This document shows, piece by piece, positions 23,264-45,525 of a stretch of DNA of 64,000 nt (positions within the stretch are counted from its first letter, which is position 1; the number at the start of each line of letters is the position of its first letter). The stretch is from Mycolicibacterium tusciae JS617 (lineage in GTDB: Bacteria > Actinomycetota > Actinomycetes > Mycobacteriales > Mycobacteriaceae). The translations under genes and the position numbers were made by a program. The notes under the pieces were generated by a model, which worked only from the letters and a program-made list of their open reading frames with translations, was not told the origin of the DNA and ran no database searches. The stretch is taken from assembly GCF_000243415.2 (NCBI RefSeq), contig NZ_KI912270.1:3038001-3102000 (forward strand). Reading direction: 5' to 3'.

Positions 23264-23329
23264 CCGATGTTGACGACGGTCGAAATCTAGGCCAGAAGCG
23301 ACGGTGAAAAGTAGGCCACGTGGTCGTGG

Positions 23330-23778
23330 TTATTGTGCCGTGTTGTCGGCTCTGGCGGAGGGCAAGGTGTCGATTCCGGTGTCCTTGAGCCGATAGCTGG
23401 AGCCTTTGAGGGTCAAGACGTCGGCGTGGTGCACGATGCGGTCGATCATCGCGGCGGCCACCACTTGGTCTCCGAACACGTCGCCCCAGCGGGCGAAGGG
23501 CAGGTTCGAGGTCAGGATCAGTGAGGCGTGTTCGTAGCGGCTGGAGACCAGTTGGAAGAACAGGTTCGCGGCGTCCTGCTCGAAGGGGATGTAGCCGACC
23601 TCGTCGACGACGAGCAATCCGATGCGACGCAGCTTGACCAGCTCGGCGGGGAGTCGGCCGGCGTTGTGCGCGGCCTTGAGCCGGGCGACCCAGTCCACAG
23701 CGGTCGCGAACGCGATGCGATGCCCGGTCTGGGCAGCCTTGACTGCCAATCCGATGGCGAGGTGGGTCTTGCCAGTTC
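23330..23778 (-). pseudogene. istB: IstB ATPase, 3' part
   Basis: Encodes the part of the IS21 helper ATPase after the Walker A loop: (GT)GKTHLAIGLAVKAAQ, Walker B LLVVDEVGYIPF, and SSRYEHASLILTSNL with a C-terminal ARADNTAQ. The 5' part is 19.5 kb away at 43308-43647. Joining 43647-43308 to 23778-23330 gives 789 nt, a 262-residue ORF with an intact GPPGTGKT, so a functional gene was split by transposon B. Confidence 0.93.
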
Positions 23779-23784
23779 CGCCCG
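23779..23784. other. left 6-bp core of element B
   Basis: CGCCCG, between istB homology (GCCAGTTC) and the terminus TTATCGAGGGT. The core at the other end (43308-43313) is CGGGCG, its reverse complement, so for this element the inverted repeat could also be read as including the core. Confidence 0.75.
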
Positions 23785-23825
23785 TTATCGAGGGTTCGCG
23801 CCAAAAGTTGGCGTGTTTGCCCTGT

Positions 23826-24269
23826 TCAGGACGTTGTTGCGATTGATGCGACGTTGGCCGAGGGGTGGATGCCGCGGCGGGCCAGTTCGCGCCGAAGGTC
23901 GAGGTTCTCGCCGTGTGCTCGCTGGAGGGCATCGCGGAGTGCCTGCAGTTGCCGTTGGTGCTGTTTTTTGAGCTCGGCGATCTGTCGAGTCAGCGTAATG
24001 ACGAGGGTGGTGTCGGTGTCAGCAGGCTTATCGGCGGTGGCTTTGCGACGGATGCCGCGCAGATGCTCGATCCGCTTGCGTAGTTCGGGATGGTTGTAGA
24101 GGAAGGCGTGGGAGACGCCTGCTTCGCGTTGCACGGCCTGGAACGTGATCGGTTCGCCGCGTTTGACCAGTCGGCGGATGGCTTGTTCGGCGTCTCGGGT
24201 TTTGTTTTGGGACTTGACTTTCGCTGCTTCGGTGAGGGCGGTGATTCGGCGTTCTCGGGAGTCGGTCAT
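23826..24269 (-). CDS. TnpC-like DUF6262 protein of element B
   Basis: 147 residues starting at an ATG that overlaps the tnpB stop (ATGA). The N-terminal half resembles a helix-turn-helix (ITFQAVQREAGVSHAFLYNH, about 41-60). The C-terminal half is a long charged coiled coil (TRQIAELKKQHQRQLQALRD..., about 93-132). The layout matches the small third protein of Tn554-type transposons, TnpC, thought to guide orientation or efficiency of recombination. Homologous partners occur in elements C (40659-41207) and D (39382-39849). Confidence 0.82.
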   Translation of the reverse strand: MTDSRERRITALTEAAKVKSQNKTRDAEQAIRRLVKRGEPITFQAVQREAGVSHAFLYNHPELRKRIEHLRGIRRKATADKPADTDTTLVITLTRQIAELKKQHQRQLQALRDALQRAHGENLDLRRELARRGIHPSANVASIATTS

Positions 24270-26437
24270 GGGGTGCTCCTGCGGTGACGGGTGAGATCGA
24301 GAGGCACGGGGACGGGTCCAGCGCTGGGTCGATGACACTCGGTTGTCGCGCCGTGGGTTGCGGAATCCGGTGCATGGTTGAGGACGTCGAGAAGCTTGGT
24401 CAGGGCGTGATGTTCGGCGCGACGCCGGATGAGCCATACGTTGTCCTCGGGCATGGGACGGCCATGTCTGTGCTCGAATTCTGTTGTGGCCCGGTCGATC
24501 AGGTCGCTTGTTTCGCGGAGCTGACGTTGCAGCACGTCTCGGTGGGTGTGGTCGGTGACGAACACCGAGCAGGTTAGACAGGCGTTGCCTTTGTCGCAGG
24601 ACTGCAGCGGGGGCAGCATGCACCACCCGTTGGGCAGGAACCGGTCTGCGCGGCGGAACAGATGCAGGCTGTCGTGGTCGTCGCTGGAGAGTTGGATGCG
24701 GGTGCCGTCGGATCGGAGCTTGGCGGTGGCCAGGAAGGCCTGCTCGGCGTGTTCGTCGCGGGCGGCGATGTAGTGCATCGTCATCGTGGGGGTGGCGTGA
24801 CCGGCGTAGCGCTGCAGGACATGGACCGGCAGTCCGAGTTCGGCCAACCTGGTCAGTCGGGTGTGACGGAAGCGGTGGGTATGGCTCAACTGGATGAGGT
24901 GGCCCTTGGCGTCGGTGATTTGCACGAGGTCGCTGAGGGTGCGTAGCACCCAGTTGTAGGTGCCTGATGGGTAGGGTTTGTCGCCGCGGCGGTTGCCCAT
25001 TCGCCGCGCGAATAGGAAGCGTCTGCTGCCGTCGGGATGCTGATCCTGTATCCAACGGTGTTGTTCGGCAATGACTTCAGTGACCTCGCGATCAACGAGG
25101 ATGGTGTCCGGTGCGACGTCGATCTTGCTTTGTGCGTAGCGGAACCTGGCCAGCGTTGGGTCGTGGTCTCCGGCTGCGGCGGTGCTCGGCGCGGAAGAAA
25201 GGCAGTCGAAATCGCAGGTGCGGATCTCGCTGGCCCGGCGCCCGGTGAGGATCTGCAGCAGGATCATCCGCATTGCTTGCGGGTCGTCGAGCCCATTGGC
25301 GGTAATGGTCGTGCCGTTGCCTTGGGTGATGGTCATCTGCTCGGTGCGGGGCAATCCGATCAACGGCAGCGCCGCGGTGATCTGGGCGAGTGCGTGGTCG
25401 TCGATGTAGTTCGCGTCGTTGAATCCGCGCTGATGCGGTATTCGGGTGACCCGGCCGAACCAGCTGGAGGCGTGAGCTGCAGTGACTCGCTGCCACGGTT
25501 CGGCGCCGAGATTGGAGCGAGCTTCACCGGAATTGGCGGCGATGAAGTCCAGTAAGCCGGCGACGGCTCGCAGGTCGTCATTGACGCCCCGGATCGGTAC
25601 CGATTTTCCGAGGTGGCGGGTGTCTGATTCGCGGGTGGCGCGGTTGGCGGCCACCGCGGTCCACCGCGCGAACGCAGTTGCCTGCTCGACTGCGGTCGTG
25701 GGGTCGCCAAGGATGTCGGTCGGGTCGTCGAAGCTGGTTGTCAGCCAGTTGTCGAAGCGGCGGAAGCCGTGCATCCGTTCTTGGCTCACCGTCGTCCAGC
25801 GCAGCGCCCCGGATTCGAGCGCCGTGCCCAGATGCCACTTCACCGCGGCCCGCAGCCAGGGCAACTGAATCTGGCCAGGTGAGCAACCGTAGTTAGCGAC
25901 CGGTTCGCGGTCGGTGAGCGGGATCCGCGGATCGCAGCGTGGGTGCCAGAAGTCCAGCTGCCACCATGGGCCGTTGTGACAGGCGGCGATCAGGGCGTGT
26001 CGTGCGAAGCCGAACAGGCCGTGAACTCGGGCGCGGCCTTTGGGCGAGGGCAGTCGCTTGCCTCTGCTGAGATAGAACCAGCTCTGCAACGCCGCGGCGG
26101 CCTGGTAATCCATCTCCCGGACCGACGGGGCGAAGGAACGGCCGTCGGCGAGCGCCCGCCGAATGATGTTGGCCAACTGCGCCATTGCGAGCACTGACAC
26201 GCGGGTGCCGTCGCCGGCCTGCCAGTGCGCCATCCACGCCAGCTCAGCGGCGAAGGGCTCGGGCAATCCGCTCAGATCTAACTGAGGCCAGTCATTCTCG
26301 GTAACTGATGCCCAGTTCTCGATGCCTGGCCCCAGCACAGGGCCACGCCACGGCGACGGCAGATCGTCCCAGAGTCGCCAGATCGGATCGAGGTGTTGGA
26401 CTCCTCGCAGGTGCAGGTGCCCATGCTCGTCGATCAT
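24266..26437 (-). CDS. TnpB-like tyrosine recombinase of element B
   Basis: 723 residues. The C-terminal catalytic domain has Arg-I in ILTGRRASEIRTCDF (about 402), HRFRHTRLTRLAELG (about 545, H-x-x-R-H box), GHATPTMTMHYIAA (about 572, with Tyr nucleophile), then a cysteine cluster (CMLPPLQSCDKGNACLTC, about 632-649) typical of large Tn554 TnpB-like proteins. Its ATG overlaps a TGA of an upstream frame that stays open for at least 60 codons, so an upstream coupled gene or a frame-shifted N-terminus was probably present. It ends in the tnpC overlap. Confidence 0.88.
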   Translation of the reverse strand: MIDEHGHLHLRGVQHLDPIWRLWDDLPSPWRGPVLGPGIENWASVTENDWPQLDLSGLPEPFAAELAWMAHWQAGDGTRVSVLAMAQLANIIRRALADGRSFAPSVREMDYQAAAALQSWFYLSRGKRLPSPKGRARVHGLFGFARHALIAACHNGPWWQLDFWHPRCDPRIPLTDREPVANYGCSPGQIQLPWLRAAVKWHLGTALESGALRWTTVSQERMHGFRRFDNWLTTSFDDPTDILGDPTTAVEQATAFARWTAVAANRATRESDTRHLGKSVPIRGVNDDLRAVAGLLDFIAANSGEARSNLGAEPWQRVTAAHASSWFGRVTRIPHQRGFNDANYIDDHALAQITAALPLIGLPRTEQMTITQGNGTTITANGLDDPQAMRMILLQILTGRRASEIRTCDFDCLSSAPSTAAAGDHDPTLARFRYAQSKIDVAPDTILVDREVTEVIAEQHRWIQDQHPDGSRRFLFARRMGNRRGDKPYPSGTYNWVLRTLSDLVQITDAKGHLIQLSHTHRFRHTRLTRLAELGLPVHVLQRYAGHATPTMTMHYIAARDEHAEQAFLATAKLRSDGTRIQLSSDDHDSLHLFRRADRFLPNGWCMLPPLQSCDKGNACLTCSVFVTDHTHRDVLQRQLRETSDLIDRATTEFEHRHGRPMPEDNVWLIRRRAEHHALTKLLDVLNHAPDSATHGATTECHRPSAGPVPVPLDLTRHRRSTP

Positions 26438-26627
26438 TCGGCCACCCGCCAGCTGCTGGCATAGGAAGCCCAGTTGGCTGCCGCCCGCAGTGCTTCGTCG
26501 TCACGAACCCAAAATGGTGACGTCGGATATTGAAACTGTCCGAATGCGTCGGGACCCCAGCACGCCCCGCGGCAAGCTGAGGTCCATCGCCTCGCTGTAC
26601 CTGTCGACGTGTAAGCATGTCGGTCAT
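26434..26627 (-). pseudogene. possible 3' tail of a truncated recombinase gene
   Basis: The frame ending at the TGA at 26434-26436 reads ...PDAFGQFQYPTSPFWVRDDE and on to a stop that overlaps the tnpB ATG by 4 bp, the same coupling seen between all other genes of these elements. There is no stop upstream in this frame to at least 26627, but also no convincing start. It may be the end of a lost gene cut off when cassette X arrived, or a frame-shifted N-terminus of tnpB. Confidence 0.35.
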
Positions 26628-27270
26628 GGGCCTATCGCCCTCACACGAGTTCATCGCGCGCCGCTATGACCGCCTGGCATGGGCATATCGGCTGATCGAG
26701 TTGCTGTTCTGGCTGCCACCGAGGTTCCGCCGTCGGGCGGTCGACCGCCTCGAGTTGAGACCCGGAGACCGGGTGCTGGAGATCGGATGCGGAAGCGGGC
26801 GAAACCTCGGACTGCTGCGAAGTGCGGTCGGCCCCACCGGCCTGGTCGAGGGCATCGACATCTCGCCGGGCATGCTCGCGCGCGCCACCCGCCTGATCAC
26901 CCGCCGCGGCTGGGCGAATGTGAGCGTGGTCGCGAAGGACGCCGCGAAAGTGGAGAGCGCCGAGTGCTTCGAAGCGGTTCTGTTCAGCCTGTCGTACTCG
27001 GTGATCCCGAACCGTGACCTAGTGCTGGCGCGCGCGTGGGGTTCGCTGGTCAAAGGGGGACGCCTGGTGATCATGGACGCCTGCCTTCCCGAGGGTAGAC
27101 GTGGTCGCTGGCTCCGCCCGCTCGCCGTGTCGATGAGCAGGGCGACGGTGCTCGGCGACCCGGAGATTCGAGCCTGGGAAGAGCTTGCAGGCCTGAGCCG
27201 ACCAGTGAACACCGAGCGGAACCGGCTGGGCAACTACGTGATCACGAGCATCCGGAAACCGCTTGCGTGA
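26617..27270 (+). CDS. class I SAM methyltransferase (cargo gene)
   Basis: 217 residues; the alternative start at 26629 (MGLSPSHEFIARRYDRL) would be 4 residues shorter. UbiE/Coq5-like SAM site VLEIGCGSGRNLGLL (about 49-63), GIDISPGMLARA (about 75-86), and a late LVKGGRLVIMD strand. The only gene in element B that is neither a recombinase nor a regulator, and the only one on the plus strand outside element C, so it is probable cargo. Substrate unknown; such enzymes methylate lipids, quinones or small molecules. Confidence 0.8.
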   Translation: MSVMGLSPSHEFIARRYDRLAWAYRLIELLFWLPPRFRRRAVDRLELRPGDRVLEIGCGSGRNLGLLRSAVGPTGLVEGIDISPGMLARATRLITRRGWANVSVVAKDAAKVESAECFEAVLFSLSYSVIPNRDLVLARAWGSLVKGGRLVIMDACLPEGRRGRWLRPLAVSMSRATVLGDPEIRAWEELAGLSRPVNTERNRLGNYVITSIRKPLA

Positions 27271-27460
27271 AAACGTTTCACCACGTCGAGGCCGGCCAGC
27301 CCCGCACCGGCGGCAGGGCGTTCAGGTAACAAGTGGGACGGCTCTCGGAGGGGACCTGCGAAGGTTACTGAGATGTCAAGGCGGCTGGGAGGGATCGGGC
27401 TTTGCAACCCACCCAGTGCGAGCGCCCACTTATGGAGCCAATTCACACCGTCACCCCGGG

Positions 27461-29881
27461 CTATGCACGCGTCTTCGTGTTGTGGGTCAGAGAATTTGGC
27501 CGTCGGCTGATGTGGGCGGCGTAGTTCGTCCAGTCGCCGGCCGAGAGGCGTTGCCAGGAAACAGCGACGTCGGTGTGAATGCCAAGCGTGCGGGCCAGGA
27601 TTGCTGCCGGGATCTCGGTGGCGAGTTGAAACAGTGCGGTGCTGCGAGCAGCCCCGGGGCGGATGCCGAGTCGGTTCAACCGCTGAGTGAGCTGGCCGGT
27701 GCTGATGGGCCGACCGGGTTGGCCGCCGGGAAAGAGCCAGATCGAGGGAGTTAACGCACCAATGGTCGCGTGGCCCCTTGCGATTTGACACAACCAATCG
27801 GGCCAGCTCGGCGACGGGTTCGGGCAGGTGTATGGGCGAGCTGCCCAGATGCAACCGGACCGGATCAACCTCGGTTTCGACGTCGACGATCGTCATCCGG
27901 CAGATCGCAGCCGGTGTCTGGGCGTAAAGCAGAACGAGCAGACCGGCCAGCCGGTCATCGGGCTTGAGGCTGTCGTCGTGCAACAGGCGGCGCGCGATGT
28001 CCCAGCGGTGCTGGTCATCGAGGGGTCGGGTAGGGCCCATCCAGCGGTGGGCGCCGACGCGGACACTGGTCAGCTTGTTCCGATGGGCCCATCGGATGAA
28101 GTGTCCCGCCGCCCCACGATGTGTCGCGGTGGCGTCGGTGAGCCATCGATCGAGGTCGCTGTGCTGACAGCTGCCCAGCGTGAGCTGGTGTTCGGTGAGC
28201 CAGTCCAGGAAGGCGACGGCCGCGTATATGCGTTGGCGCACTGAGTTGAACTGCTGGATGGTGGTGGGGTGGCCGTTGTTACGTTGCCGCAGGCGACGGG
28301 TCAGGTGCCAGACGGTGTAGCGGTGCAGCACCTTCTGTTGCTCGGGGTTTGTTTGCGCGGCCAGGGTCTGGTCGATGAGCCGCTCGATGCGGACCATATG
28401 TTCATCGCGTCGTGGTAGCGCGCCGACGCCGATCAGGACTTGGCGCAGGTGAGCGAGAGGCGGGCTGTGGGGCAGTTCATCGAGCGCTTCGTGTGTCAAC
28501 GCCCGGCGCCCAGCAGCCAGATCGGCCAGCACAGGCGCGACGGACTTCTTCTTCAGCCATCGCATGGCGGTGATGGGGTGTTCTGCGGTAGCGATGTTGT
28601 GCCGCAACGCCTGTAGTCCGGGATGGAGTGCTGCCGAGGGCGGGCCGAGGAGCTCGTTGAGGCGTTGATTGATTCGGCATCGAACGCATTGGCCGGGGTG
28701 CGGATGGGACGGGTCGCTGCAGGTTGGGCAGTCGTGCCAGACCGCGCGGGTGGTGCAGTCCTGGCAGTGCGGATGGGTGAGGGTGCCCGAGATCACGGCG
28801 GCGTTCCGTCCGCAGGAACAGCATCGGGCCGTGCGGCTCTGGCAGGCAGGACACCACGGCCGACCGGTGATTCGCGAGGTGCCGCAAGGCGTTTCCTCAC
28901 CGCAGATCGAGCAGGTTGCGGTTGGCAAGGCCGGGCAGGTGCCGCAGATCGGCCCGTCCGGCGTCCGCAGGTTGACCGGGCGGCGGCGGCCGCAGTTGAG
29001 GCAGACTTCGAGGTTGTTGGGGTCGGTGATCAAACAGTTCGGGCAGAGTGGTCGGCCGTGCTCGTCCCGAGTGGCCGGTTCGCGGCGGGCGCCGCAGCGT
29101 GCGCATTCTTCGATGCGGGTGTGGGCGATGCAGGTGCGGCAGACACGCTGCCCGTGAGAGGTTTGTCGATCCGGACGACACGACCGCAGAGAGGGCACGC
29201 CGGCCGGACGATGCCGGCAACGCCAGCGGCGTGCAGAGCATCGATCAGCGGGATGATCGCGCGGACAGGGGCGAGATGCCCGGCGCCGGTGAGCAATTCG
29301 GGTTGAGCCTCCAACGCCCACGCGATCCTGCGTTGATGCGCGGGCCGAGACGCAAGTCTGCCAACCGAGCCGGCAATGAGGTCGCGGTCCACAGCCGGAT
29401 CCAGCCGGGCAACCACGTCGCAGATGACCGAGATCGGATCGCGGTCATCGCGATCCGGGCAGTGCGCGCAGCGGGGCCCTCCGGCGCGATCACGCGTCGA
29501 GACGTGCCGAAGCTGCCCGCAGGCCACACAAGGCGCCGGACGCAGGCTGCAGGCCCCGCAGTACCAGTCCTGACCACGACGCTGCAGGGTCCGCATCGGC
29601 TTGCCGCACTCGCCGCAGACCGGCGGCGAAACCTCCGCGCCGGCTTTTCGCAGTGCTATCAGCAGGTCGCCGACCGCCCGCGGCGCCGGAGAGCGTCCAT
29701 CGGTCAACACGGCCGGGCGCCCGGCGAGAAACGCTGCCAGACGCCGCGATTTCGCCCGCCCGCCCGCGACGCTGGTGACGACCGACCTGACCCGCTCAAG
29801 TGCAAGCCGGTCATCGACCGCCACCACCAGGTCCGCGATGAACCCGACCGGATCCAAAACCGAGCGGTCGCCGATGGTCAC
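27461..29881 (-). pseudogene. zinc-finger recombinase-like protein with two frameshifts
   Basis: GTG start at 29881 overlaps the XRE-gene stop (GTGA). The N-terminal 230 residues include CGECGKPM and CGACSLRPAPCVACG. Near 29165 the frame shifts (a G run of three where four is needed) into CRTCIAHTRIEECARCG and several more CxxC pairs. A second shift near 27776 (four G for three) leads to the end at 27461. With both corrected it is 2421 nt, 806 residues: about eight zinc-ribbon pairs followed by a tyrosine-recombinase-like core with degenerate catalytic residues. It resembles a helper partner of the integrase in cassette X. Confidence 0.75.
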
Positions 29882-30216
29882 GGCCCCTTGGCGCCGCGGA
29901 CGCGCGCCCGCTTGGGCCGCAGCTCGCCGATGCCGGCTTCAGCGCCGACCGCCTTCTTCGCGCGAGCGCTCGCCTGCGCCGAGACGGCGGGCTCGATCAA
30001 ATCGTCGATCGTGCAGTCGAGGATGTCCAGCAGCGCCATCAGGACCTTCAGGCTCAGCCGTTCGGGTCGCTCGACGACCAGCCGGTAGACCTGGCTGGAC
30101 GACAAGGTGATGCCGCGCTTGTCCAGCGGCTCGATCAGATCGGTGGTCGCGAACATGCCACGGTCGGCCATGACCTTCCGCAGATGCCAGTGGTAGTCGA
30201 GCTTGGCGGGCATCAT
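29878..30216 (-). CDS. XRE-like helix-turn-helix regulator
   Basis: 112 residues. The N-terminus (HLRKVMADRGMFATTDLIEP) and ITLSSSQVYRLVVERPERL form the DNA-binding helix-turn-helix, with LKVLMALLDILDCTIDDLIEP following as in XRE/Cro-like proteins. The basic C-terminal tail is low in complexity. ATG overlaps the integrase stop by 4 bp and its stop overlaps the next GTG, so it is translated with the integrase and the zinc-finger protein. It probably controls recombinase expression. Confidence 0.82.
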   Translation of the reverse strand: MMPAKLDYHWHLRKVMADRGMFATTDLIEPLDKRGITLSSSQVYRLVVERPERLSLKVLMALLDILDCTIDDLIEPAVSAQASARAKKAVGAEAGIGELRPKRARVRGAKGP

Positions 30217-30740
30217 CAGTCCTTGTCTGCCGGAGGGATCGAAGCAAGCGCGGGCGCGAGCGCCTTCTGCAGCATGGTGTTCATGAAGTCTGAGCTGACA
30301 TGGGTGTAGATGGCCGTGGAACTGTCGCACTCGTGCCCAACCTGGGATTGGATGAACCGCCGGTCAACACCGTCCTCGGTGAGGTGAGTGACGAACGAGT
30401 GACGGATTGAGTGGGGCACAAGGTCTTTCGACAACTTCAACGCATCCCGATAGGCGACGAACCGAGCGTTGATCTCCGCAGGCTTGATCCGCCCGCCCCG
30501 CTCAGTCACCCACAGCGCTGGATGATCGGGGCACCCGAACTTCGGCCGCACGTTCTCGACATAGTCAGCAACGGCATCTACTGCCCAATCCATCACCGAC
30601 AACACATTCCGCCGCCGCGGCGGCTGCCCCCGTTTCGCCTTGCCGTAGCGCACGTTGAGCGTGCCGAACCCGCCGAACTGCGGCGCAGCCGCATTGCGGC
30701 CGAAGTCCACCAGGTCGAGCTTGGCGGTCTCGGTCCGACG
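30216..30740 (-). pseudogene. integrase of cassette X, 3' part
   Basis: Encodes the catalytic half of a tyrosine recombinase after the Arg-I box: (GL)RRTETAKLDLVDFG, then VPHSIRHSFVTHLTEDG (H-x-x-R box), VGHECDSSTAIYTHVS (Tyr box). The N-terminal part is at 41325-41951, 10.6 kb away. Joining 41951-41325 with 30740-30216 gives 1152 nt, an intact 383-residue ORF reading YGWGLRRTE across the junction. The split was caused by element C. Confidence 0.92.
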
Positions 30741-30746
30741 CAACCC
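30741..30746. other. left 6-bp core of element C
   Basis: CAACCC between integrase homology (CGGTCCGACG) and the terminus TTCTCCGGGGTT. On the coding strand it is GGGTTG (Gly-Leu). The other core is CAGCCC (41325-41330), whose coding strand GGGCTG also encodes Gly-Leu. Confidence 0.85.
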
Positions 30747-30881
30747 TTCTCCGGGGTTGCCTGACCTGTTGCGCCATGTTGCTCGACCGGGAGGATCGGG
30801 CGGGTTGTTCGGCGTTTCTCCGGGGGTGTGGTGCTTGTGGCTGGTAGTCGTTTGAGACTGTCGACCAGAAAGCGAGAGATC

Positions 30882-32048
30882 ATGCGAGCATTCCCGGTGA
30901 GTTTGCCGTCGGGGCAACGGTATTGGACGGTGCTGGACGAGGACCTGCACGTGGTGGGTGTTGCCGACGAGTATCTGCGGCATCTGCGGTTCGGCCGCGA
31001 CGCGGCCGAGTCCACGACCAAGGCGTACGCGCATTCGATCGCGTTGTTTCTGCGCTGGTGCGCTCGATCGGGGCGCTCCTGGCAAGGCGGTGTCGAGGGT
31101 TTCGCACTGTTCATAAGGTGGTTGGCGCACGCCGGGGGACCGGTTGAGGACACCGCGAGCGGAGTGGTGGCCGGTCCCGGCGCTGCTACGCTGCGGTGCC
31201 CATCGCGGATCAACGGTGTGCTGACGGCGGTGCGGGGCATGGTGGTACACGCGGTCGCGACCGGCACCGGGGCGGCGGGACTGGTGTCGATGCTCTACGA
31301 GGTCGCCGACGACCGGGACCTGCCGGCCGAGGCCCGCGGCGAGGACGGTCGGATGGCGTGGCGGATGCGGGCCCGGCATCGGCTGCGGGAACCGGAAACG
31401 ACGATCGATCGGGCCAGCGATGAGCAGATCGTCGCGATACTGCGGGCCTGCCGTTCGGCGCGGGACCGGCTGATCGTGCTGTTGATGGCGCGGGGCGGGT
31501 TGCGCCGCGGGGAGCTGTGCGGACTGCGGCGCAGCGATGTGCACCTGCTGGTGGATTCGCGCCGCCTGGGCTGCGAGGTGGCGCGGGCGCATCTGCATGT
31601 GGTGCGCCGCGAGGACAACTCGAACGAGGCGTGGGCCAAATCGCGCCGGCAGCGGGTGGTGCCGCTGGATTTCCTTGTGGTGCAAGTGTTCGACGTCTAC
31701 GAGTTCGAGCGCATGCGCGTCGCCGATGCCGCCAATAACGATTTCGTGTTCGTCAACCTGTTCCGCGGCAAAATCGGTAAACCGATGCGCCCGGACGCGA
31801 TCGGGGAGTTGATGGCCGCGGCGTCGCGGCGCGCCGGACTCGACGTCGTGGTGCGGCCCCACCAGCTGCGACACGCGTACGGCAGCAACGTTGTTGATGC
31901 CGGAGCCGGGGTCGACGTGGTCGCCGATTTGCTTGGTCACGCGGCGGTGTCCTCGTCGCAGGTTTATCTGCATCCCGACTCCTCCCGGCTGCGGGCGGCC
32001 GTCGACGCCGTGCCCAGTCCTCGTGAACTCGGTGCGGTGACCCGGTGA
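30882..32048 (+). CDS. TnpA-like tyrosine recombinase of element C
   Basis: 388 residues from the ATG at 30882; the earlier in-frame start at 30828 would lie closer to the terminus and adds a poor leader. The N-terminal SAM-like core-binding domain includes ESTTKAYAHSIALFLRW (about 44-60). Catalytic residues: Arg-I in LMARGGLRRGELCGL, RPHQLRHAYGSNVV (H-x-x-R-H), and LLGHAAVSSSQVYLHPD (Tyr). Homologous to the TnpA-like protein of element B (both open with a GQR.WTVL.ED motif). The stop overlaps the next start (GTGA). Confidence 0.9.
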   Translation: MRAFPVSLPSGQRYWTVLDEDLHVVGVADEYLRHLRFGRDAAESTTKAYAHSIALFLRWCARSGRSWQGGVEGFALFIRWLAHAGGPVEDTASGVVAGPGAATLRCPSRINGVLTAVRGMVVHAVATGTGAAGLVSMLYEVADDRDLPAEARGEDGRMAWRMRARHRLREPETTIDRASDEQIVAILRACRSARDRLIVLLMARGGLRRGELCGLRRSDVHLLVDSRRLGCEVARAHLHVVRREDNSNEAWAKSRRQRVVPLDFLVVQVFDVYEFERMRVADAANNDFVFVNLFRGKIGKPMRPDAIGELMAAASRRAGLDVVVRPHQLRHAYGSNVVDAGAGVDVVADLLGHAAVSSSQVYLHPDSSRLRAAVDAVPSPRELGAVTR

Positions 32049-33882: not shown

Positions 33883-33941
33883 TTGTCCCCGCTTAGTTCC
33901 CGTGTTGCGATAAGCCGGGAAGGGGCTGGTGGCCTTGGTGT

Positions 33942-37182: not shown

Positions 37183-39385
37183 CAAGCACAATCGCGACCA
37201 CGGCACCCGGCACACCCCCACGGTCCCCGTTCACCGGCGCCGACATCTGCCGCGAAGCCGGGCTCACGCTGCCAGACCGCACCTCACGACCGGTGTTCGA
37301 CGACGACCTGTGGGATTTCACCGACGTCGTCGGGCTCCCGGTCCAGATGGCCCTCTACCGGCGGCGATTCGACTTCACCACCATCACCGACCCACGTTGG
37401 CGGCTGGTCGTCAAGGAGCTGATCCTGGCGCTGCTTGCCCCGAACCATGATGCCGTGGTTCGGCTGCCGCGCGCCTACCGCACCGCACTGCATCTGACCA
37501 GCTGCTACAGCCGACTCTACGAGGCCGGGACGTTCTTCGGCTGGCTCGACCGGCGGGGAATCACTGCCCTCACCGAAGTCGATACCCGCCTCTGCGAGGA
37601 CTACCTGGGATTCCGACGCTATGTCACCGACTCCGACGGCACCGTCGTGGGCGAGCAGAGCCCCGGCCTCCGGCGCGCTGCCGCGCAGATGATCGTCGAC
37701 CTGGTCGACTACCGTGACCTGTTCACCACCGACCGGGTTCCGGCCGATCTGCGTCCTTGGGGCGGCGCGACAGCGTCAGCGGTCGCCGAAATGCCTTCTG
37801 GTCGTGAGGGAAACAAGACGCCGGCCGTCCCTGCCGAAGTGCTGCAGCCGATGCTCGCCGCGGCCTTGCACCTGGTGCAGACCCTCGGCCCACACGTTGT
37901 CGAGCTGCACGAGCAGATCCGCCACATCGACCGCATTTGGGCTACGAAGGCACCGGGCCTTCGTCATGGCTCGTCGGCGATGATCAGCGACATCAACAAA
38001 CTGCTGGCCGACCACAGGGTGACCAACACGCCTCTGCCGATGCTCGAAGACCACGATGTCAGACGCCGACTCACGGCTGGCTGGGACGCGAACAACCCGC
38101 TGCTGCCGGTCTCCACCGGAGCCCCTGGCCCGGCAGGCCGGATACGTCCAGTTTTGGGCGAAATGGATGCCCGCGCTGCGCAAACCGCTGATCGACACCC
38201 TCCACACTGTCGGAGTCGAGAAGGTTTTTCGCCCGCAACGCCGCACAGGCACCGACCGCCGACGACTCAGCCCTGTTGCCCTGGACACTGCCACTGCACC
38301 GATCCGAAGCGGTCGCCCTGATCGGCATCACCCGCACCGCGGCCATCGTGGTCCTGGCCGCCGCGTCCGGAATGCGGGCCAGCGAGCTGATGGAACTGCG
38401 GGTCGGCTGCTGCCGCCCGGTCGAGGAACCGATACCCGGTCTGAAGCGCTACCGCGTCGCCAGCAAGATCATCAAAGGCCAGGGCCTGGGTGGCACCGAC
38501 GACGAATGGGTCGTCATCGAACCGGTCCACCGCGCAATCGAGCTCATCGAACAGCTCCATGACGACCCCCACGAGGGCGCTCTTCTGCTGTCCCGGTTCA
38601 GCTTCCGGGTCCGTTACCTATGGTTTCGCGCCTGGGTGAACTCCCCGGCCGGGGCCCGCCTCGGACTCGCCCCGATCCCCGACGAACCAGTAGCACTGCG
38701 GATGCTGAGGCGCACGGTTGCGTTGGAGATGGCTTACCGGCCCGGCGGTGTTCTCGCAGCAAAACTGCACCTCAAACATATCGCTGCCGCCACTACAGAA
38801 GGCTATGCGGCTCGACCGGGCGGTGCTCAAGCGGAGTTGCTGGCCGAAGTCAACAAGCTCGAGGCCGACCACAAACTCCAGCTCGTGCTGGCCGAGTTCC
38901 GCAACTACCAGCAAGGAATCCTGCCCGCCGGGCCCGGTGCCCGCAACCTGACCGAATTCTTCGCCAGCATCGACACCGACCTCGACACCGAAGCGATTGC
39001 GGCGCCCAAGATCCAGCGCAACGACCGCGACATCCTCAACCTGCTGTCCAAACGCGCGAAGGCACTGCATCTCGGCCCGGCGAACTATTGCTGGTTCACC
39101 GATCCCTCGCGCGCACTCTGCCTGAAACTCGCCGGCACCCCGACCTCGGACCGCCCGATGATCGGCATGTGTGACTCCGCGCGCTGTCCGCAGGCCACCC
39201 ACCACCAGCACCACCGGCCCATCTGGGCCGAGCACGCCGAACTCACCAAGACCCTCCTCGGCCAACTCGGCAAAACCCGCACCACCGAACACACCCGACT
39301 ACAGACCGACTACGACCGCGCCGTCCGGGTCATCACCAGCATCGACACAGCCACCGGGACCGGCGCAACCGAGGAGCAAGCATGA
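37179..39385 (+). pseudogene. third recombinase-like protein of element D, frameshifted
   Basis: ATG overlaps the previous stop (ATGA). The first frame runs to about 38125; a one-base insertion (four C for three) leads to RQAGYVQFWAKWMPALRK; a second (five T for four, near 38230) leads to LPWTLPLHRSEAVALIG and the end at 39385. With both removed it is 2205 nt, 734 residues. The Arg-I region AAASGMRASELMEL is present; the later boxes are weak (MLRRTVALEM, HIAAATTEGYA). A terminal Cys/His patch lies near SARCPQATHHQHH. Confidence 0.78.
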
Positions 39386-39849
39386 GAATCACTGCCGCCC
39401 AACGCATCCACAACGAGAACTGCATCCGCGCCGCCATGGACCGGCTGCTGCGCGGCGAGATCCCGCCCGGCGGCAGCTGCGATATCAAGACCCTCGCACT
39501 CGAGGCCGGGGTCGACCGCACGGCGTTCTACGGCACCCGGCCCTACGCGCACCTACGCACCGAATTCGAGCACCGACTCCAGCAATTGCAAGAGGCGGGA
39601 GAAACCCCGGACCCGAAAGTCGCTCAGATCGAACGCCTCAAAGCAGAGGTTGACAAGCTCAAAACCAACCTCGCCCAATCCAATTCCACAATCCAGGACC
39701 TCACCGACTTCCGGAGCCAGGCCCTGGCCCGCATCGCTGCCCAACACGACGAGATCCTTCGACTCCGCGCCGCCGACAACCCGGCAGCAGCCGTCACCTG
39801 CCTCCAGAGTCGCCCGAAACCCCGGCAGAAAGTAATCGGACCATGCTGA
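39382..39849 (+). CDS. TnpC-like DUF6262 protein of element D
   Basis: 155 residues, start overlapping the previous stop by 4 bp. N-terminal helix-turn-helix-like part (IKTLALEAGVDRTAFYG, about 36-52) and a coiled coil from about 80 to 130 (ERLKAEVDKLKTNLAQ...). Same layout as the proteins at 23826-24269 and 40659-41207. Last gene before the right terminus, 141 bp away. Confidence 0.82.
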   Translation: MRITAAQRIHNENCIRAAMDRLLRGEIPPGGSCDIKTLALEAGVDRTAFYGTRPYAHLRTEFEHRLQQLQEAGETPDPKVAQIERLKAEVDKLKTNLAQSNSTIQDLTDFRSQALARIAAQHDEILRLRAADNPAAAVTCLQSRPKPRQKVIGPC

Positions 39850-39990
39850 CCCCGTCGGCAGTGACGTCCATCACAAACGATTTGGGTTTATCGCCACACG
39901 ATCGGCAATCAGCGTCACGAACTACGCGCCGAGAATCGGCCACGTCAAACGCAACACGAACCCAACCGCACACGACCACTGCGGAGACAA

Positions 39991-39996
39991 GGCGCT
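39991..39996. other. right 6-bp core of element D
   Basis: GGCGCT between the terminus GCGGAGACAA and tnpB homology CGTATGCCCAACG. It differs from the left core GGCATT at two positions; the pattern of two different cores matches tyrosine-recombinase transposition, in which one core is carried from the previous site. Confidence 0.85.
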
Positions 39997-40662
39997 CGTA
40001 TGCCCAACGTCATGCGGACGCCGGAGTGCCGATCGACGTCCTGGCCGAACTGCTCGATCACCGAAGCTACTCCATGACTCGCCGCTACTACCGCATCGGC
40101 GAAGACCGTCGCCGCGCTGCCGTGGACACCGTCACCGCGCTGAGCTTCGACCGGCATGGCAACAGGATCTGGCGCGATGCGCAGATGCTGTTGGACTCCG
40201 AACGCGCCCGACACGCCGTCGGGGACGGTTGCCGTCCCCTACGGCACCTGCACCGAGCCGACCAATGTCAAAGCCGGCGGCGGAGCCTGCCCGGTCCGGT
40301 ACCGGTGCGTGGGCTGTGACCACTTCCGCACCACCGTGGCGTTCCTGCCCGAGTTGCAGGCATACCTCGATGATCTGCTGCGCACCCGAGAACGGCTGGC
40401 CGCCACCATTGATGGCATCGATGACTGGGCCCGTGCCGATGCCTCTCCGGCCGAGGAAGAAATCACCCGGGTCCGGCGACTGATCAACCGAATCAAGGGC
40501 GATATCACCGGCATCGACGACACCGAGCGAGCCCGCATCGATGACGCCGTCGCCATCGTGCGCCGTCACCGCGCAGCCCACACGGTGCCGCTCGGCATGC
40601 CCATACTCACCGTCACCCCGCCCGGACTACCCACCACACCTACGTCGGAGGCCAGTGCATGA
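39997..40662 (+). pseudogene. TnpB-like recombinase of element C, 3' part
   Basis: Continues the gene begun at 32045: SYAQRHADAGVPIDVLAEL, LLDHRSYSMTRRYYRI (Tyr box), then after a one-base insertion near 40221 (four G for three) VAVPYGTCTEP and CPVRYRCVGCDHF, a Cys cluster like that of TnpB in element B. Ends at 40662, overlapping the next ATG by 4 bp. Confidence 0.9.
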
Positions 40663-41207
40663 CCCGCACCACGAACCCGCAAACCCAGCCGATGCTGGAC
40701 GGCCGGCGCGACGACTCGGGGCGCCGCCGCAAACGGGTGCTGGCGGTGCTCGACCAAGCCGCCGCCGCGGGCGACCCGATCAGTGCGTCCGCAATCGCGC
40801 GCGCGGCCGGAGTCGACCGCACGTTCCTCTACCGTCACCGCGACCTGCTGGAGAAAATCCATGCGCTGCAAGCAGATCCAGCCCATCTGAACAGCGATCA
40901 CGCGGTCACACATGCGTCGCTGCGGGCGGACCTGCTGGCCGCCCACGAACGAGCCGCCCGCCTCAACACCCGCAACCACCAACTGGAGAAACGGCTTTCC
41001 GAGGCGCTCGGCGAACATACCTGGCGTGAGTCCGGGCTCGGCAGCCCCGTCGACATCGACGCGCTCCACCAGCGCATCAGCCAGCTCGAACACGATAACC
41101 TCGACCTTCAACACCAGCTCGAGGAACGCGACGACGACCTGACCGCTGCCCGCGCCGCCAACCGAGAACTCATGGCCCGACTGAACACGCCGAGCCGGCC
41201 ACAATGA
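40659..41207 (+). CDS. TnpC-like DUF6262 protein of element C
   Basis: 182 residues. Helix-turn-helix-like SASAIARAAGVDRTFLYRH (about 46-64) followed by a long coiled coil with heptads (HERAARLNTRNHQLEKRLSE, about 97-116; ISQLEHDNLDLQHQLEERD, about 142-160). It ends 117 bp before the element C right terminus. Third member of the family in this window. Confidence 0.82.
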   Translation: MTRTTNPQTQPMLDGRRDDSGRRRKRVLAVLDQAAAAGDPISASAIARAAGVDRTFLYRHRDLLEKIHALQADPAHLNSDHAVTHASLRADLLAAHERAARLNTRNHQLEKRLSEALGEHTWRESGLGSPVDIDALHQRISQLEHDNLDLQHQLEERDDDLTAARAANRELMARLNTPSRPQ

Positions 41208-41324
41208 CCCACCGCGAGCCCCCTTGCACCACACCTGTTGCAGCCGATAGCATCTCATCACCGGCCTCTAAGCTGCACAAACTCAGAGAACCGCGCTGCC
41301 GCACGGGGACTGAACCCTGGAGAA

Positions 41325-41330
41325 CAGCCC
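41325..41330. other. right 6-bp core of element C
   Basis: CAGCCC between the terminus GAACCCTGGAGAA and integrase homology CCAGCCGTAG. See the left core at 30741-30746. Confidence 0.85.
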
Positions 41331-41951
41331 CCAGCCGTAGATCACCTTGAAGATCGTGGCATCACGGTAAGCGGCAAGAGCCCCTTTACGTTTCGCCCGC
41401 ACCGCGCGCTCGACCTGATCGTCGGCGTAATCCAGGAACCGCTGCAACTCCTCCCGCGTGAACGGCCTAGCCTCCGGCCGACCCTCGTAATCGTTCAAAT
41501 GAGCGATCGTGTTCCACTCGTGGCAGATCGCCACCGGATGGGTGCCGAACGCTTCCTCACATGCCACCGCCCACCCGTAGCGTCCGTCGATCAGGAACTC
41601 GCTGAACAGCCGCAACCCGCACTGGTAGCCGCGGATCGTCGACGGCGCAAGATGCTTCTCGCTGGTCAGCCAGAGCGACCACTCATCGATATGCGCCGGG
41701 GTCCACTGCCACGGGTAGTCGTTGACGAACTCCATGAACCGACGGACCAGGTTCTCCCGCGACGTGATCGTCTCCTCACGAAGCCCGCGAGCAGCCTGCT
41801 GAGCACGCCAGCCACGAAACATCGCCTCCACCATCGCATCCTGCGGACGCAACGAAACCACACCGGACACCAGCTCCAGATGAGCCTGCCCCCGCCACGA
41901 TCGACCCGCCGCAACCCGACCCCCCACGCCACCCAACAGTGAACGAATCAT
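41325..41951 (-). pseudogene. integrase of cassette X, 5' part
   Basis: N-terminal core-binding domain of the tyrosine recombinase whose catalytic half is at 30216-30740. Visible: TITSRENLVRRFMEFV, APSTIRGYQCGLRLFSEFL, ending at KVIYGWG where element C enters. ATG at 41951 gives a 383-residue joined protein; ATG at 41834 gives 344 and is nearer to the domain start. The reading runs into about 13 foreign codons and a stop inside element C. Confidence 0.92.
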
Positions 41952-42036
41952 GCATCAAATGGGATCACTTTGGCAGATGGCCAGGCCAGCAGCAGTTTTC
42001 ACGGCATCAATCTGCTAGCCTGAAACCCCTACTCCA

Positions 42037-43188
42037 TCAGGCAACCGGGCGATTCTCGCCCATCAGATGCAATTCCCGAGCGTTGCCGTAGAGGTCAAGG
42101 GTGGTCTGCACGTGGGCGTGCCCGAGGCGCCGGGACACCACCCATTCCGGCGTCCCTGCGAGCAACAACGCAGTGGCATGGGTGTGACGGAACCAGTGTG
42201 GCGTCCACCCGGGCGGCCCGATGCAGCGCCGGCGCAGCGAGGCTACCTTCTCCCGGACCGTCGTCTCGCGCAGCGCGGCCAACAGTGGCGGCCGCGCCAC
42301 ATTCACCAGCAGTGGGCAGGTGTCAGTCAGAGCGACACCGGATTCGTCTGCCCGGCAGGCGATGTCGGTGAGATAGTCGGCGAACAGCCGCTCGAGGTCG
42401 GCCCCGACATAGATTCGTCGCGGTCGCATCATCTTCACCCGCGCCCCGTTGGGGTTATCGCAGCGGGGCACGATCTCCACATACGCGGTGCCGCCGCGGC
42501 CGAGCACGACCTCGCCGATCCGCAAGCCCAGCGCCTCCCCGAGACGCATCCCGGTCTCGGCCAGCAGGGCGAACACGAACCGGTCTCGCAGGTTGCCCCG
42601 CCACGATCCAGACTCGGCATCGAAGACCGCGCAACCATCCAGGATCGCCTGGATCTGCTCGGGCAACAGCAACGGAGATCTGTCCCGGCGCCGGTCGCGC
42701 CGCACGCGCACCAGCGACGATGCCGCCGGGGCCGAACGCGCATCCAGATGCGCCAGCAAGCCCCGGGCAGGTCGGCGCCGTGGTGTTCCTCGCAGTAGTC
42801 GTCCCGCCACCGACACCCCGGACACTGCCTGATGCCAGCGGTAGAACGAAATTAACGCTGCCAGGCGAACTTCCAACGTCGCAGCGGTCGGCGCCTGGTT
42901 CGACCCAGCCAGCCGATGTTCAACTGTGCGGCCGTTGCGCTGCCAGGACACGAACGCCGTAAAAGCGGGAACACCGACATCGCGCCAGCCGTCGGTTTGC
43001 CCGCGTTGTTCCAGGAAGCTCCACCACTGCGCCAATGAGGTCGCATAGCCACGCACGGTGTTCGGCGACCACAGGTGTCGGTGAGCTTCTATCCACTCCT
43101 CGACGGGTCCGACCGTTGCGTAGTCCTCACCGAGCACGGTCCAGGTCCGCTGCCCTCCCGTGGGAGCCACTGCCACCGGATACGCCAT
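42037..43188 (-). CDS. TnpA-like tyrosine recombinase of element B
   Basis: 383 residues, beginning 119 bp inside the right terminus. Core-binding domain with SPNTVRGYATSLAQWWSFL (about 41-59). Catalytic: Arg-I in LAETGMRLGEALGLRI, HWFRHTHATALLLAG (H 331, R 334), GHAHVQTTLDLYGN (Tyr 367). Full catalytic set. Its TGA overlaps an ATG, but that frame stops after two codons (ATG GAG TAG), whereas in element C the following gene is the overlapping tnpB. This suggests tnpB was separated here by cassette X. Confidence 0.92.
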   Translation of the reverse strand: MAYPVAVAPTGGQRTWTVLGEDYATVGPVEEWIEAHRHLWSPNTVRGYATSLAQWWSFLEQRGQTDGWRDVGVPAFTAFVSWQRNGRTVEHRLAGSNQAPTAATLEVRLAALISFYRWHQAVSGVSVAGRLLRGTPRRRPARGLLAHLDARSAPAASSLVRVRRDRRRDRSPLLLPEQIQAILDGCAVFDAESGSWRGNLRDRFVFALLAETGMRLGEALGLRIGEVVLGRGGTAYVEIVPRCDNPNGARVKMMRPRRIYVGADLERLFADYLTDIACRADESGVALTDTCPLLVNVARPPLLAALRETTVREKVASLRRRCIGPPGWTPHWFRHTHATALLLAGTPEWVVSRRLGHAHVQTTLDLYGNARELHLMGENRPVA

Positions 43189-43307
43189 CGTTGCCGTTCC
43201 TTCACGTCGAAGAACACCCGCCGATAAACCGGCAACAACGATGACTCTCCCAGCATTAACCCCCTTGTCGCATACATAGATTCGAGCGTGTTGCTACCCG
43301 TTGATAA

Positions 43308-43313
43308 CGGGCG
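43308..43313. other. right 6-bp core of element B
   Basis: CGGGCG between the terminus ACCCGTTGATAA and istB homology GCCCGAG. On the istB coding strand it reads CGCCCG and restores GPPGTGKT when the element is removed. Confidence 0.8.
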
Positions 43314-43647
43314 GCCCGAGCAGGACCACGTTGGATGCCTTAGCCAGGAAGGCGCCGGTTCCCAGGTGAGCGATCATGTCCCGGTTCAGCGCGGGTTGGT
43401 GATCGAAGTTGAAGTCCTCTAACGACTTGCGGGTCGGGAAACCGGCGGATCGGATCCGAGTCGCCGCGCCGGAGGCTTCGCGGGCCGCGACCTCCCGTGA
43501 GAGCACCGCCGCCAAATATTCTTCGTGGGTCCAGCCGGTGTCGCGGGCTTGCTCGGCCAGCCGGGCGGCCGAGTCTCGAATGCGTGGCGCCTTGAGGGCC
43601 TGGGCGTAGTGCAGGACGGCCTTCATCGGATCTTCGGCCATGCTCAT
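43308..43647 (-). pseudogene. istB: IstB ATPase, 5' part
   Basis: N-terminal part of the IS21 helper ATPase up to the Walker A loop (ASNVVLLGPP). The ATG overlaps the istA stop by 4 bp, as is normal for IS21 elements. After GPP the reading enters element B and stops within it (43294). The remaining part lies at 23330-23778. Confidence 0.93.
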
Positions 43648-44918
43648 GCCACCTCGCCATCGGACGTGGCTGTGCCAGTGCTGAAGTCGACACTGAAGGC
43701 GCGGTCGTAATCGGCCAGGTCGCGCACCAGGTGATCACCTGCCGCCGGCGGTGGACCGGCTTGAAACTGCTGGCGCAACGCCGCGGCGGTCGTGACGTGG
43801 GTAGGGTCAGTCAGGGTTTGCCTCGCCGCCCAGCAACGGTCATGGGTGGCCAGCAGCCGTCCCGCCCGGGTGACCGTCACCTGGGCCAGGGTGGTGGTCA
43901 CGTCGATGAGTTGGCCGATCGCACTTGGATCCACGGAGTAGTCGTTGCCTGCCACCCGCACGTAGTAGTCGCGTCCTAGCCGCACCGAAGACGCCGTCTC
44001 GGTGACTGGCGGCACCGGTGGCAGGGCCAGCATCTGGGCGCGGTCGGCATCGAGGAAGTCGACCGGACGACCATCCAAGACCCGCACCCGCCTACTATTC
44101 GCGGCCGGAAGCCATAGTCGCAGTTGATCATTGAAGTCTTGCGGTGAATCAAAGCTGCGACCAGGCAGAAACGACGTCTCCAGATACCGGTTGGCCCGCT
44201 CCACCATCCCCTTGGATTCGGGGTCATAGGGTTTGAGTTGCACCAGCCGCGAACCCAGGGTGCCCACCAGTGCGGTCACCGGCTCGGTCAACCGGCCGCG
44301 ACGTCCGATCCCGGCCTCGTTGTCCCACCACAACTCATGCGGCACCGCACCGAAGCTGCCTGAGAGTAGTTGCCACATCCCGGCCACCAGGTCCATGGTC
44401 TGGCGCGAGGGCAGCATCACCGCAGCGATGAACCGCGAGAACGCCGCCACCATCACCAGCACCGGCAGCATCGCCTCCTGGCCGAACCCGACCCCGATCT
44501 TGGGCGCCGGGAACCACAGATCGCACTGAATCACCCGACCCGGCGGATGCTCGAGGCGATCGACCGGATCGGCGGGCAGATACTCCGGGCGGATCGCCCG
44601 GACCCGCTCCCGAAACCATGAGATCGAGCCGGTCCACCCGACCCGCTCAGCGATCACCGTCGCCGGCATCGCGGGATAGGCCAACAACAACGCCCGAATC
44701 CGCGGCTCCACCTCGTTGATCGCCGACGGCGACGAGGCCCGCTCGTACTTCGGCGGACCATCACTGGCCAGCGCACTGGCCACCGTGTCTCGCGCGATGC
44801 TCAGCTGCCGTGCAATAGCCCGCTGCGACAGCCCTTCGCTGCGGTGAAGATGCCGGATCAAGGCCCAGTCTTCCAAGGAGATCACCCATCCAATCTGATT
44901 GGGTGGCCTACTTTTCAA
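43644..44918 (-). CDS. istA: IS21-family transposase IstA
   Basis: 424 residues. N-terminal helix-turn-helix (GLSQRAIARQLSIARDTV, about 29-46), then a DDE core: Asp in QCDLWFP (about 131), Asp in WWDNEAG (about 199) and Glu in GMVERANRYLE (about 240). C-terminal beta-rich domain. The frame is complete, but without IstB the element should be immobile. The ATG at 44918 lies within the terminal repeats; a GTG near 44885 (VISLEDWALIRHL) is the likelier start. Confidence 0.93.
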   Translation of the reverse strand: MKSRPPNQIGWVISLEDWALIRHLHRSEGLSQRAIARQLSIARDTVASALASDGPPKYERASSPSAINEVEPRIRALLLAYPAMPATVIAERVGWTGSISWFRERVRAIRPEYLPADPVDRLEHPPGRVIQCDLWFPAPKIGVGFGQEAMLPVLVMVAAFSRFIAAVMLPSRQTMDLVAGMWQLLSGSFGAVPHELWWDNEAGIGRRGRLTEPVTALVGTLGSRLVQLKPYDPESKGMVERANRYLETSFLPGRSFDSPQDFNDQLRLWLPAANSRRVRVLDGRPVDFLDADRAQMLALPPVPPVTETASSVRLGRDYYVRVAGNDYSVDPSAIGQLIDVTTTLAQVTVTRAGRLLATHDRCWAARQTLTDPTHVTTAAALRQQFQAGPPPAAGDHLVRDLADYDRAFSVDFSTGTATSDGEVA

Positions 44919-44955
44919 CCGTCGCGACTGGCCGGGTTCTCAACCGTCGTCAACA

Positions 44956-45525
44956 ACCGATCCGAAATAGCCGGCACTTAGCGCAGTTTCATCCGTAGAA
45001 CGGTGGTCGCTAAACCTCGGCAGCTATCGCGAGCTTTCTTCCGCATGAGGGAGGAGACGGGCTTGTTCTATTGGTTCTGCGATGTGAATGTTGATGGTGT
45101 GCAACATATTCAATGGTGGTCGGTAGCGGAGACTGGTTGGCATTTAATGAGGCGATATCGATCTTCCCTGCGCAGTCCGGTCAGAAAGGCGCGCAGGCTC
45201 TTACGGGATGCCGGCGATGGCGAGCACGCGATGATCCGGGTCTTCATCGGACATGGGCGTAGGCACAGGCGTCGATGAACGCCAACGCGTAAAGTCATCC
45301 GAAGAAAGATGGCAGTAAAGCACGATTCGCCGCTCGGCCTTGGTGAACGAGAACTACACCACTGCGCCTAAGGTCTTCCGGGTCGCACCACCATCAATCC
45401 AGCCTGACCATCAACCGACCGGTGACTAGCCCGACGCGCGACTGTCAGAGGCGAAGCCTCACCGGCAGCTCGGTTGAGAATCACACGCCAGCAGTTGCCG
45501 CGTGGCGACGATCCTCATATGAGCG
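44956..45525. other. intergenic region right of element A
   Basis: About 570 bp. A 91-codon plus-strand ORF (45003-45278) has no recognised domain and an Arg-rich end; I do not support it as a gene. The rest shows no gene. It follows the stop of the WbaP-like gene. Confidence 0.45.

Follow-up and report, generated by a model that had tools for sequence, protein, structure and literature searches.

Five-level transposon nest in Mycolicibacterium tusciae JS617 with insertions at catalytic-motif codons of mobile-element enzymes

A 64,000-nucleotide stretch of the genome of Mycolicibacterium tusciae JS617 (assembly GCF_000243415.2, contig NZ_KI912270.1, positions 3,038,001 to 3,102,000 of the forward strand), hereafter the window, contains five mobile elements designated A, B, C, D and E. 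Split genes, profile matches, element ends and empty sites revealed that they are inserted one inside another in the order A[B[E[C[D]]]]. The nest is very probably explained by motif-homing tyrosine-recombinase transposons, each targeting the codons of a catalytic motif in the enzymes of other mobile elements. The observations behind this explanation are repeated insertion at the same codons across genes and across genomes, sites that lack the insert and, for D, footprints of 6 bp. Positions are those of the window, with the exception of own-genome positions in the 7.3-Mb assembly of four contigs, which are given in Mb; L numbers denote loci.

Results

Architecture of the nest

The five elements are as follows.

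A, 23268..44955, minus strand: IS21-family element, ends included (inverted ends 23268-23310/44913-44955; ACCGA repeats)
B, 23783..43308, minus strand: Tn554-like tnpABC element of ∼4 kb when E is absent (ends, accurate to a few bases, from alignments to L007-L009, L011, L160, L161 and L350-L355)
E, 26512..42084, minus strand: element holding C and D (same ends at three other own-genome sites; B without E)
C, 30741..41324, plus strand: Tn554-like tnpABC element, 4.46 kb without D (L348 and junctions; ends accurate to the 6-bp core)
D, 33883..39990, plus strand: four-gene element of the type of GInt and the strand-biased circularizing integrative elements (SE), ends TTGTC...GACAA

A previous sequence-only reading of this DNA recognized four levels, E (26512-42084) having been merged into B. 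The two elements are separable. The window sequences 26511|42085 are adjacent within one base in L007, L008, L009, L011, L160 and L161, which include loci of M. avium, M. chubuense, M. gilvum and R. erythropolis; B without E is also present in L350-L355, and E is found at other sites without B. The four-level nest was therefore rejected. Uninterrupted versions were found for E without C (L158, L159, L006, L163, L165, L166 and others), C without D (L346, L347 and L348) and D alone (four other sites of the own genome), in addition to B without E.

The containment deduced from split genes was correct, and the three inner joints are backed by empty sites in other genomes. The istB gene of A is interrupted as proposed, the N-terminal half matching the IstB profile at 2-102 and the C-terminal half at 101-234, and D does interrupt tnpB of C. 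The integrase gene reported as split by C is indeed split, with a SAM-like domain in frame 41283-41951 and the catalytic half in 30216-30740, but it belongs to E and not to B. The ends of A at 23268 and 44955, with the 5-bp repeat ACCGA at 23263-23267 and 44956-44960, were likewise confirmed. The predicted size of C (∼4.5 kb) agrees with the uninterrupted copy without D on the 4,464-bp contig L348 (identity 99.7-99.9%), and that of D (6.1 kb) with 6,105 bp in four other copies versus 6,108 in the window. The proposed succession in time (A first, then B, C and D) is not proven, since E[C[D]] is present as a ready-made block at other sites and its parts could therefore have nested before entry into B. 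The site specificity of the joints, overlooked in that reading, is documented below.

Element B is inserted at Walker A codons

The genes of A and B at the outer joints are listed below.

istA, 43644..44918, minus strand: Mu-transpos_C_2 match, rve below cut-off
istB N-terminal half, 43309..43647, minus strand: stops at Walker A (GPP), IstB_IS21 profile 2-102
istB C-terminal half, 23330..23778, minus strand: resumes at GTGKT, IstB_IS21 profile 101-234
B tnpA, 42037..43188, minus strand: tyrosine recombinase (Phage_integrase)
B tnpB, 24266..26437, minus strand: large tyrosine recombinase (Phage_integrase)
B tnpC, 23826..24269, minus strand: matches DUF6262 as part of a longer open frame, 23826-25055

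The B genes are contiguous in L007, L008 and L011. The tnpA-side joint of B was located at Walker A codons in all 19 fetched loci of at least 72% identity (the window, L160, L007, L008, L005, L009, L011, L161 and L335-L345), 10 in the sense and 9 in the antisense orientation. Sixteen sites were called by pattern and two (L011 and L161) separately, and that of L339 was read from junction DNA. Target pieces from 10 of the 18 non-window loci were submitted to Pfam; seven matched IstB, in each case with a break in the profile at 100-102, a further piece was a NERD-domain protein and two had no family. Genome G705 contains six copies of B with six different flanks.

In L009 (M. gilvum pMSPYR101) B adjoins another gene set of an integrase, a helix-turn-helix (HTH) protein and a site-specific integrase, together with several IS21-type genes; these surroundings are likely a further nest.

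Element D is inserted at box II of tyrosine recombinases

The features of D are as follows.

Left 6-bp core, 33877..33882, plus strand: GGCATT
Gene 1, 33942..35456, plus strand: intA-like tyrosine recombinase (Phage_int_SAM_1; Phage_integrase just below cut-off)
Gene 2, 35453..37182, plus strand: second in the four-gene order, frameshifted (575-aa open frame in L042, L043 and L197)
Gene 3, 37194..39385, plus strand: intB position, frameshifted, start approximate (gene order as in L010 and L199-L205)
Gene 4, 39382..39849, plus strand: small protein in the srap/ginD/tnpC position (gene order as in L010)
Right 6-bp footprint, 39991..39996, plus strand: GGCGCT, which is also the left core of D in L043 and L197

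The GInt/SE-type label rests on gene order, ends and footprint: D has the four-gene order ginABCD or intA-tfp-intB-srap, with order and size repeated in the relatives L010 and L199-L205, and inverted ends with a 6-bp core and a footprint. A scan of named genomes yielded at least 80 D loci. All loci gathered among the matches listed gave 33 distinct left flanks for which the D end had no more than five mismatches. The joint was at box II (H-x-x-R) in 30 of the 33, comprising 27 that read HxxRx in one phase and three in tnpB of C (YAYRH), while only 98 of 40,000 random positions in the same DNA passed the same kind of test. Of ten target pieces submitted to Pfam, eight matched Phage_integrase (in three cases below cut-off), and every one of these matches ended at 133-134; of the other two, the piece from L046 matched an N-terminal integrase domain only and that from L260 gave no match. 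G was present at -6 in 33/33 flanks and C at -7 in 31/33, and the variable bases fall largely where the motif stays intact. Hosts of D-type elements include Mycobacterium, Rhodococcus, Nocardia, Kribbella, Nonomuraea and Streptomyces, among others.

Further nests were found at the same motifs. In L240 (Nocardia amamiensis) a D relative lies at box II inside intA of another D relative, a case of self-nesting, and in L349, from a genome of the same genus as M. tusciae, a single integrase gene carries two insertions, C[D] at its box I and another D at its box II.

The left core of D is GGCATT in the window, GGCGCT in L043 and L197, GCCGCC in L044 and GCCGCT in L045; the right core is GGCGCT in the window, GCCGCT in L043, L044 and L197, and GACACA in L045. 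With the exception of L045, every copy thus has a right core that recurs as the left core of some other copy in the own genome, which suggests that D may have passed from L045 to L043, L044 and L197, and from L043 or L197 to C. Since six-mers within one motif are constrained, the pairing supports such transfers but does not prove them. The two left cores of D in R. koreensis (L047-L050) likewise recur as the two right cores. The D cores in C[D] of other mycobacteria (L207, L208, L210 and L212) differ from those of the window, and D therefore probably entered C at least twice, independently.

Element C is inserted at box I of tyrosine recombinases

Element C lies in the integrase gene of E and has the following genes.

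tnpA, 30828..32048, plus strand: Phage_integrase
tnpB N-terminal half, 32045..33882, plus strand: stops in box II (YAYRH), frameshifted (833-aa open frame in uninterrupted L348)
tnpB C-terminal half, 39991..40662, plus strand: Phage_integrase positions 106-168 in open frame 39843-40319
tnpC, 40659..41207, plus strand: DUF6262 match

The joint of C was at box I, G-L/M-R (GLR or GMR), in all seven distinct target integrases with a readable flank, for C relatives of at least 85% identity. The targets were identified from the C-terminal halves in the E integrase of the window, L157, the L208 group, L318, L319 and the L320 group, and from the N-terminal half in L155. The six C-terminal halves submitted to Pfam all matched Phage_integrase (L208 and L318 below cut-off), four of the matches starting at position 35. 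The copy L317/L348 is an element-only contig and hence has no flank; the relatives L324, L328 and L334 were excluded because they gave no target.

Element E is inserted mostly after the box III tyrosine

Element E lies between tnpA and tnpB of B and contains the following genes.

Integrase N-terminal half, 41325..41951, minus strand: Phage_int_SAM_4
Integrase C-terminal half, 30216..30746, minus strand: begins at box I GLR (Phage_integrase)
Helix-turn-helix protein, 29878..30252, minus strand: HTH_26 in open frame 29878-30330
Large Cys-rich protein, 27461..29881, minus strand: frameshifted (open over 806 aa in the sibling copies L054, L154 and L155)
Methyltransferase carried by E, 26617..27270, plus strand: Methyltransf_31 and others

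In 11 of 17 distinct flanks (window, L055, L174, L175, L163, L006, L005/L158, L159, L166, L279 and L356) the joint of E immediately follows the box III tyrosine codon of a tyrosine-recombinase gene, the hosts including tnpA of B and a phage-type integrase (L356). Seven of these 11 target pieces were submitted to Pfam and all ended at 162-166 of 172. Pfam assigned three of the other flanks, two to ISL3 transposases and the third to a DNA ligase. Relatives of the E integrase below 60% identity were left out of the counts, their end matches being absent or weak. In viral contigs one E relative was found, that of L356 inside the phage-type integrase, and scans of these contigs for D and B gave no relatives.

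Insertion of E adds a short in-frame tail to the target recombinase; the last 15 codons of B tnpA come from E, and the same tail is present at the other three own-genome E joints. The target recombinase may therefore stay active.

The Cys-rich protein gave no Pfam match, and may contain a diverged recombinase fold. Assignment of E to the RIT elements was provisionally rejected, since these have three tyrosine recombinases and Pfam detects one integrase only in E. A methyltransferase-domain gene adjoins mobility genes both in E and in a Streptomyces relative of D (L010:10974-11840).

The E[C[D]] block and the quality of the assembly

Both ends of E were resolved for E[C[D]] at four own-genome sites, the window and 3.67, 0.76 and 6.13 Mb. 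The four sites are in four different target genes with exact E ends, and the cores of C and D are identical across the four blocks save one single-base difference at the right joint of C at 3.67 Mb. The close E copies listed in the own genome all carry C. A fifth copy at 6.94 Mb is chimeric, running to the contig end with another integrase as right flank, and was not used as an E site since it is untrustworthy.

Near-identical copies in the own genome differ by single-base insertions or deletions, and the broken frames differ among them. Sequencing error is likely behind many of the frameshifts, including those noted in C tnpB by the sequence-only reading, and the single-base frameshifts may be assembly errors.

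Element A and its surroundings

Element A has the istA integrase core, istB ATPase, inverted ends and short target repeat of the IS21 family. It entered at the stop-codon end of a low-molecular-weight phosphatase gene (22673-23267), beside exopolysaccharide-type genes. Elsewhere in the own genome (L052, C4 ∼6.108-6.112 Mb), the same IS21 end occurs twice (341 bp, 97-98%), the two copies facing one another ∼3.4 kb apart and possibly forming a small IS21-derived composite.

Discussion

Proposed mechanism

In the mechanism proposed here, the recombinases of each element would recognize the DNA, with short inverted ends plus a core of 6 bp, and the reaction would be of the copy-out, copy-in type proposed for SE and Tn554. 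B enters the Walker A codons of IstB and of a few other P-loop proteins, E mostly enters at the point that follows the codon for the catalytic tyrosine (box III) in tyrosine recombinases, and C and D enter box I and box II, respectively. Insertion of B, C or D is expected to inactivate the host enzyme, and E may spare it by means of the 15-residue tail. The E[C[D]] block would have moved as a unit, probably with a recombinase supplied in trans or from split pieces. Since little DNA in abundant mobile gene families is as well conserved as the motif codons, they would provide many targets and ready nesting, even in an element's own kind, so that nesting would be a consequence of target choice.

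Several results weigh against this proposal. The motif specificity is confined to close relatives, and distant ones mostly use other sites, for which reason a single rule for all Tn554-like or GInt-like elements was rejected. No Walker A motif was seen by eye in 10 loci with B relatives of 51% identity or less, no box III was found for E relatives of ∼55% or less with weak ends, and further distant C relatives showed no box I. Relatives of C at 65-67% identity are in IS3/IS481-type transposases (L168 and L325, transposase ends), and relatives at ∼56% in ATP-dependent DNA ligases (L326 and L333), the profile match of the remaining part starting at position 50 in both; these sites widen the rule, yet the motif differs. 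Among 12 D flanks whose ends have 6-7 mismatches, which come mostly from distant relatives and in part may be chance matches to the end pattern, only two showed box II, and Streptomyces relatives of D adjoin MFS and other genes. Even within the sets counted, three of the 33 D flanks (L233, L260 and L281) and three of the 17 E flanks (L164, L167 and L290) were in no recognized enzyme motif, and the right core of L045 equals no other left core in the own genome. Four further close plasmid copies of B (H10-H13) stand outside the 19-locus count. Both flanks of B in L011 (R. erythropolis pBD2) resemble istB N-terminal halves of two IS21-type elements; with such halves on both sides this copy is rearranged, which suggests recombination between two B copies. 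Lastly, the three-gene set of E has one detectable recombinase, itself split by C; the enzyme that moved E[C[D]] may have acted in trans, in two pieces or from a copy since lost.

As a separate observation, two of the C relatives (L326 and L333) and one E relative (L289) lie in ATP-dependent DNA ligases near the same profile position, ∼50-55 of 204.

Alternative explanations

It is unlikely that E[C[D]] spread otherwise than as a unit, whether through homologous recombination or because C and D homed anew to every E copy. Re-homing has in its favor that C and D home to fixed sites, from which the same architecture is expected; the four E target genes nevertheless differ and have exact E ends, and the cores of C and D are the same in the four blocks, one base aside, whereas standalone D copies carry other cores.

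A marginally smaller probability is given to recognition of a DNA word merely frequent in GC-rich genomes, the motif having no role and no enzyme family being favored. Recognition must indeed be of DNA, the core bases of D at -6 and -7 are strong, and a few sites are outside known enzymes. The 27 of 33 D flanks with HxxRx in the same phase, the eight Phage_integrase matches that all stop at one position and the confinement of variable bases largely to motif-keeping positions are contrary to this explanation. Since recognition of DNA is compatible with motif targeting, it differs mainly in emphasis.

Nesting by chance with no special target choice, as the sequence-only reading implied, is very improbable. 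Mobile elements often accumulate in the same regions, and the split genes and containment are real; the explanation fails to account for the same codon in the same phase of many different genes, compared with the random frequency in the D test.

Misassembly of repeated elements, to which the single-base differences among copies and the chimeric 6.94-Mb copy at a contig end might point, is the least probable explanation, since the block is present at three further resolved sites, the window flanks match E-free B sequences, and the same pairwise nests occur in independent genomes (B[E] in L005, C[D] in L207-L212).

Implications

Homing to catalytic-motif codons may be part of a wider pattern, which we consider as probable as its converse: an actinobacterial guild of transposons living on other mobile elements and homing to active-site codons, with one type per motif. 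Members would disarm or re-tail the recombinases of rivals and then hitchhike inside rivals kept mobile in trans; nested stacks would be the normal end state, and new specificities would arise by motif switch, as the transposase and DNA-ligase motifs in relatives could exemplify.

The deep nest becomes a rule with predictions, in that a likely further insertion site can be named to the codon. It provides a test bed for target choice by two- and three-recombinase transposons, a question left open in the available portions of the papers on SE and GInt, and shows DNA transposons choosing targets in an intein-like manner. The rule may also explain some broken integrase genes in actinobacteria, and transposition within a single genome may be traceable from donor to recipient by reading the 6-bp footprint.

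Comparison with known systems

Insertion at catalytic-motif codons of mobile-element enzymes is not described in the portions of PMC3414803, PMC5385486, PMC10214605 and PMC8138268 that were available. The element types are known and the target class looks new, as judged from a limited literature check. Inteins and homing introns sit at highly conserved active-site codons of host genes. The site choice here is similar, the difference being that DNA transposons interrupt the gene without splicing and that E only replaces the C-terminal tail. The target of Tn554 itself is radC. In contrast, the targets of B are mostly IstB-type ATPases, at Walker A codons, and those of C are integrases, at box I codons; B and C were therefore not classified as Tn554 proper. 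Both elements have two tyrosine recombinases and a DUF6262 tnpC in a row and insert site-specifically, which places them with the Tn554-related elements.

Such elements, with tnpA, tnpB and a DUF6262 tnpC in a row like B and C, are known in actinobacteria according to the available part of PMC3414803, with several identical copies in mycobacteria; their attB sites were suggested to be similar, with no target named in that part. RIT elements, as described in the accessible sections of PMC3414803 and PMC10214605, resemble E in having three adjacent genes, one of them for a tyrosine recombinase; the other two genes of E instead encode the HTH protein and the Cys-rich protein without a Pfam match.

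The GInt elements (ginABCD), in the portion of PMC5385486 at hand, are like D in the four-gene order, the large and small recombinases, the small last protein and the high target specificity. The targets named for them are genes for ABC transporters, ssb and ribonucleotide reductase, with insertion close to the gene ends, whereas D enters box II of recombinases; the likeness noted here is one of gene order. SEs, in the available text of PMC10214605, are described mainly in Gammaproteobacteria, with one integration into insJ of IS3, and no box II homing is described for them there. The same text reports for SE and Tn554 that six bases from the left side of the donor travel to the right side of the recipient, and D shows the same footprint bookkeeping.

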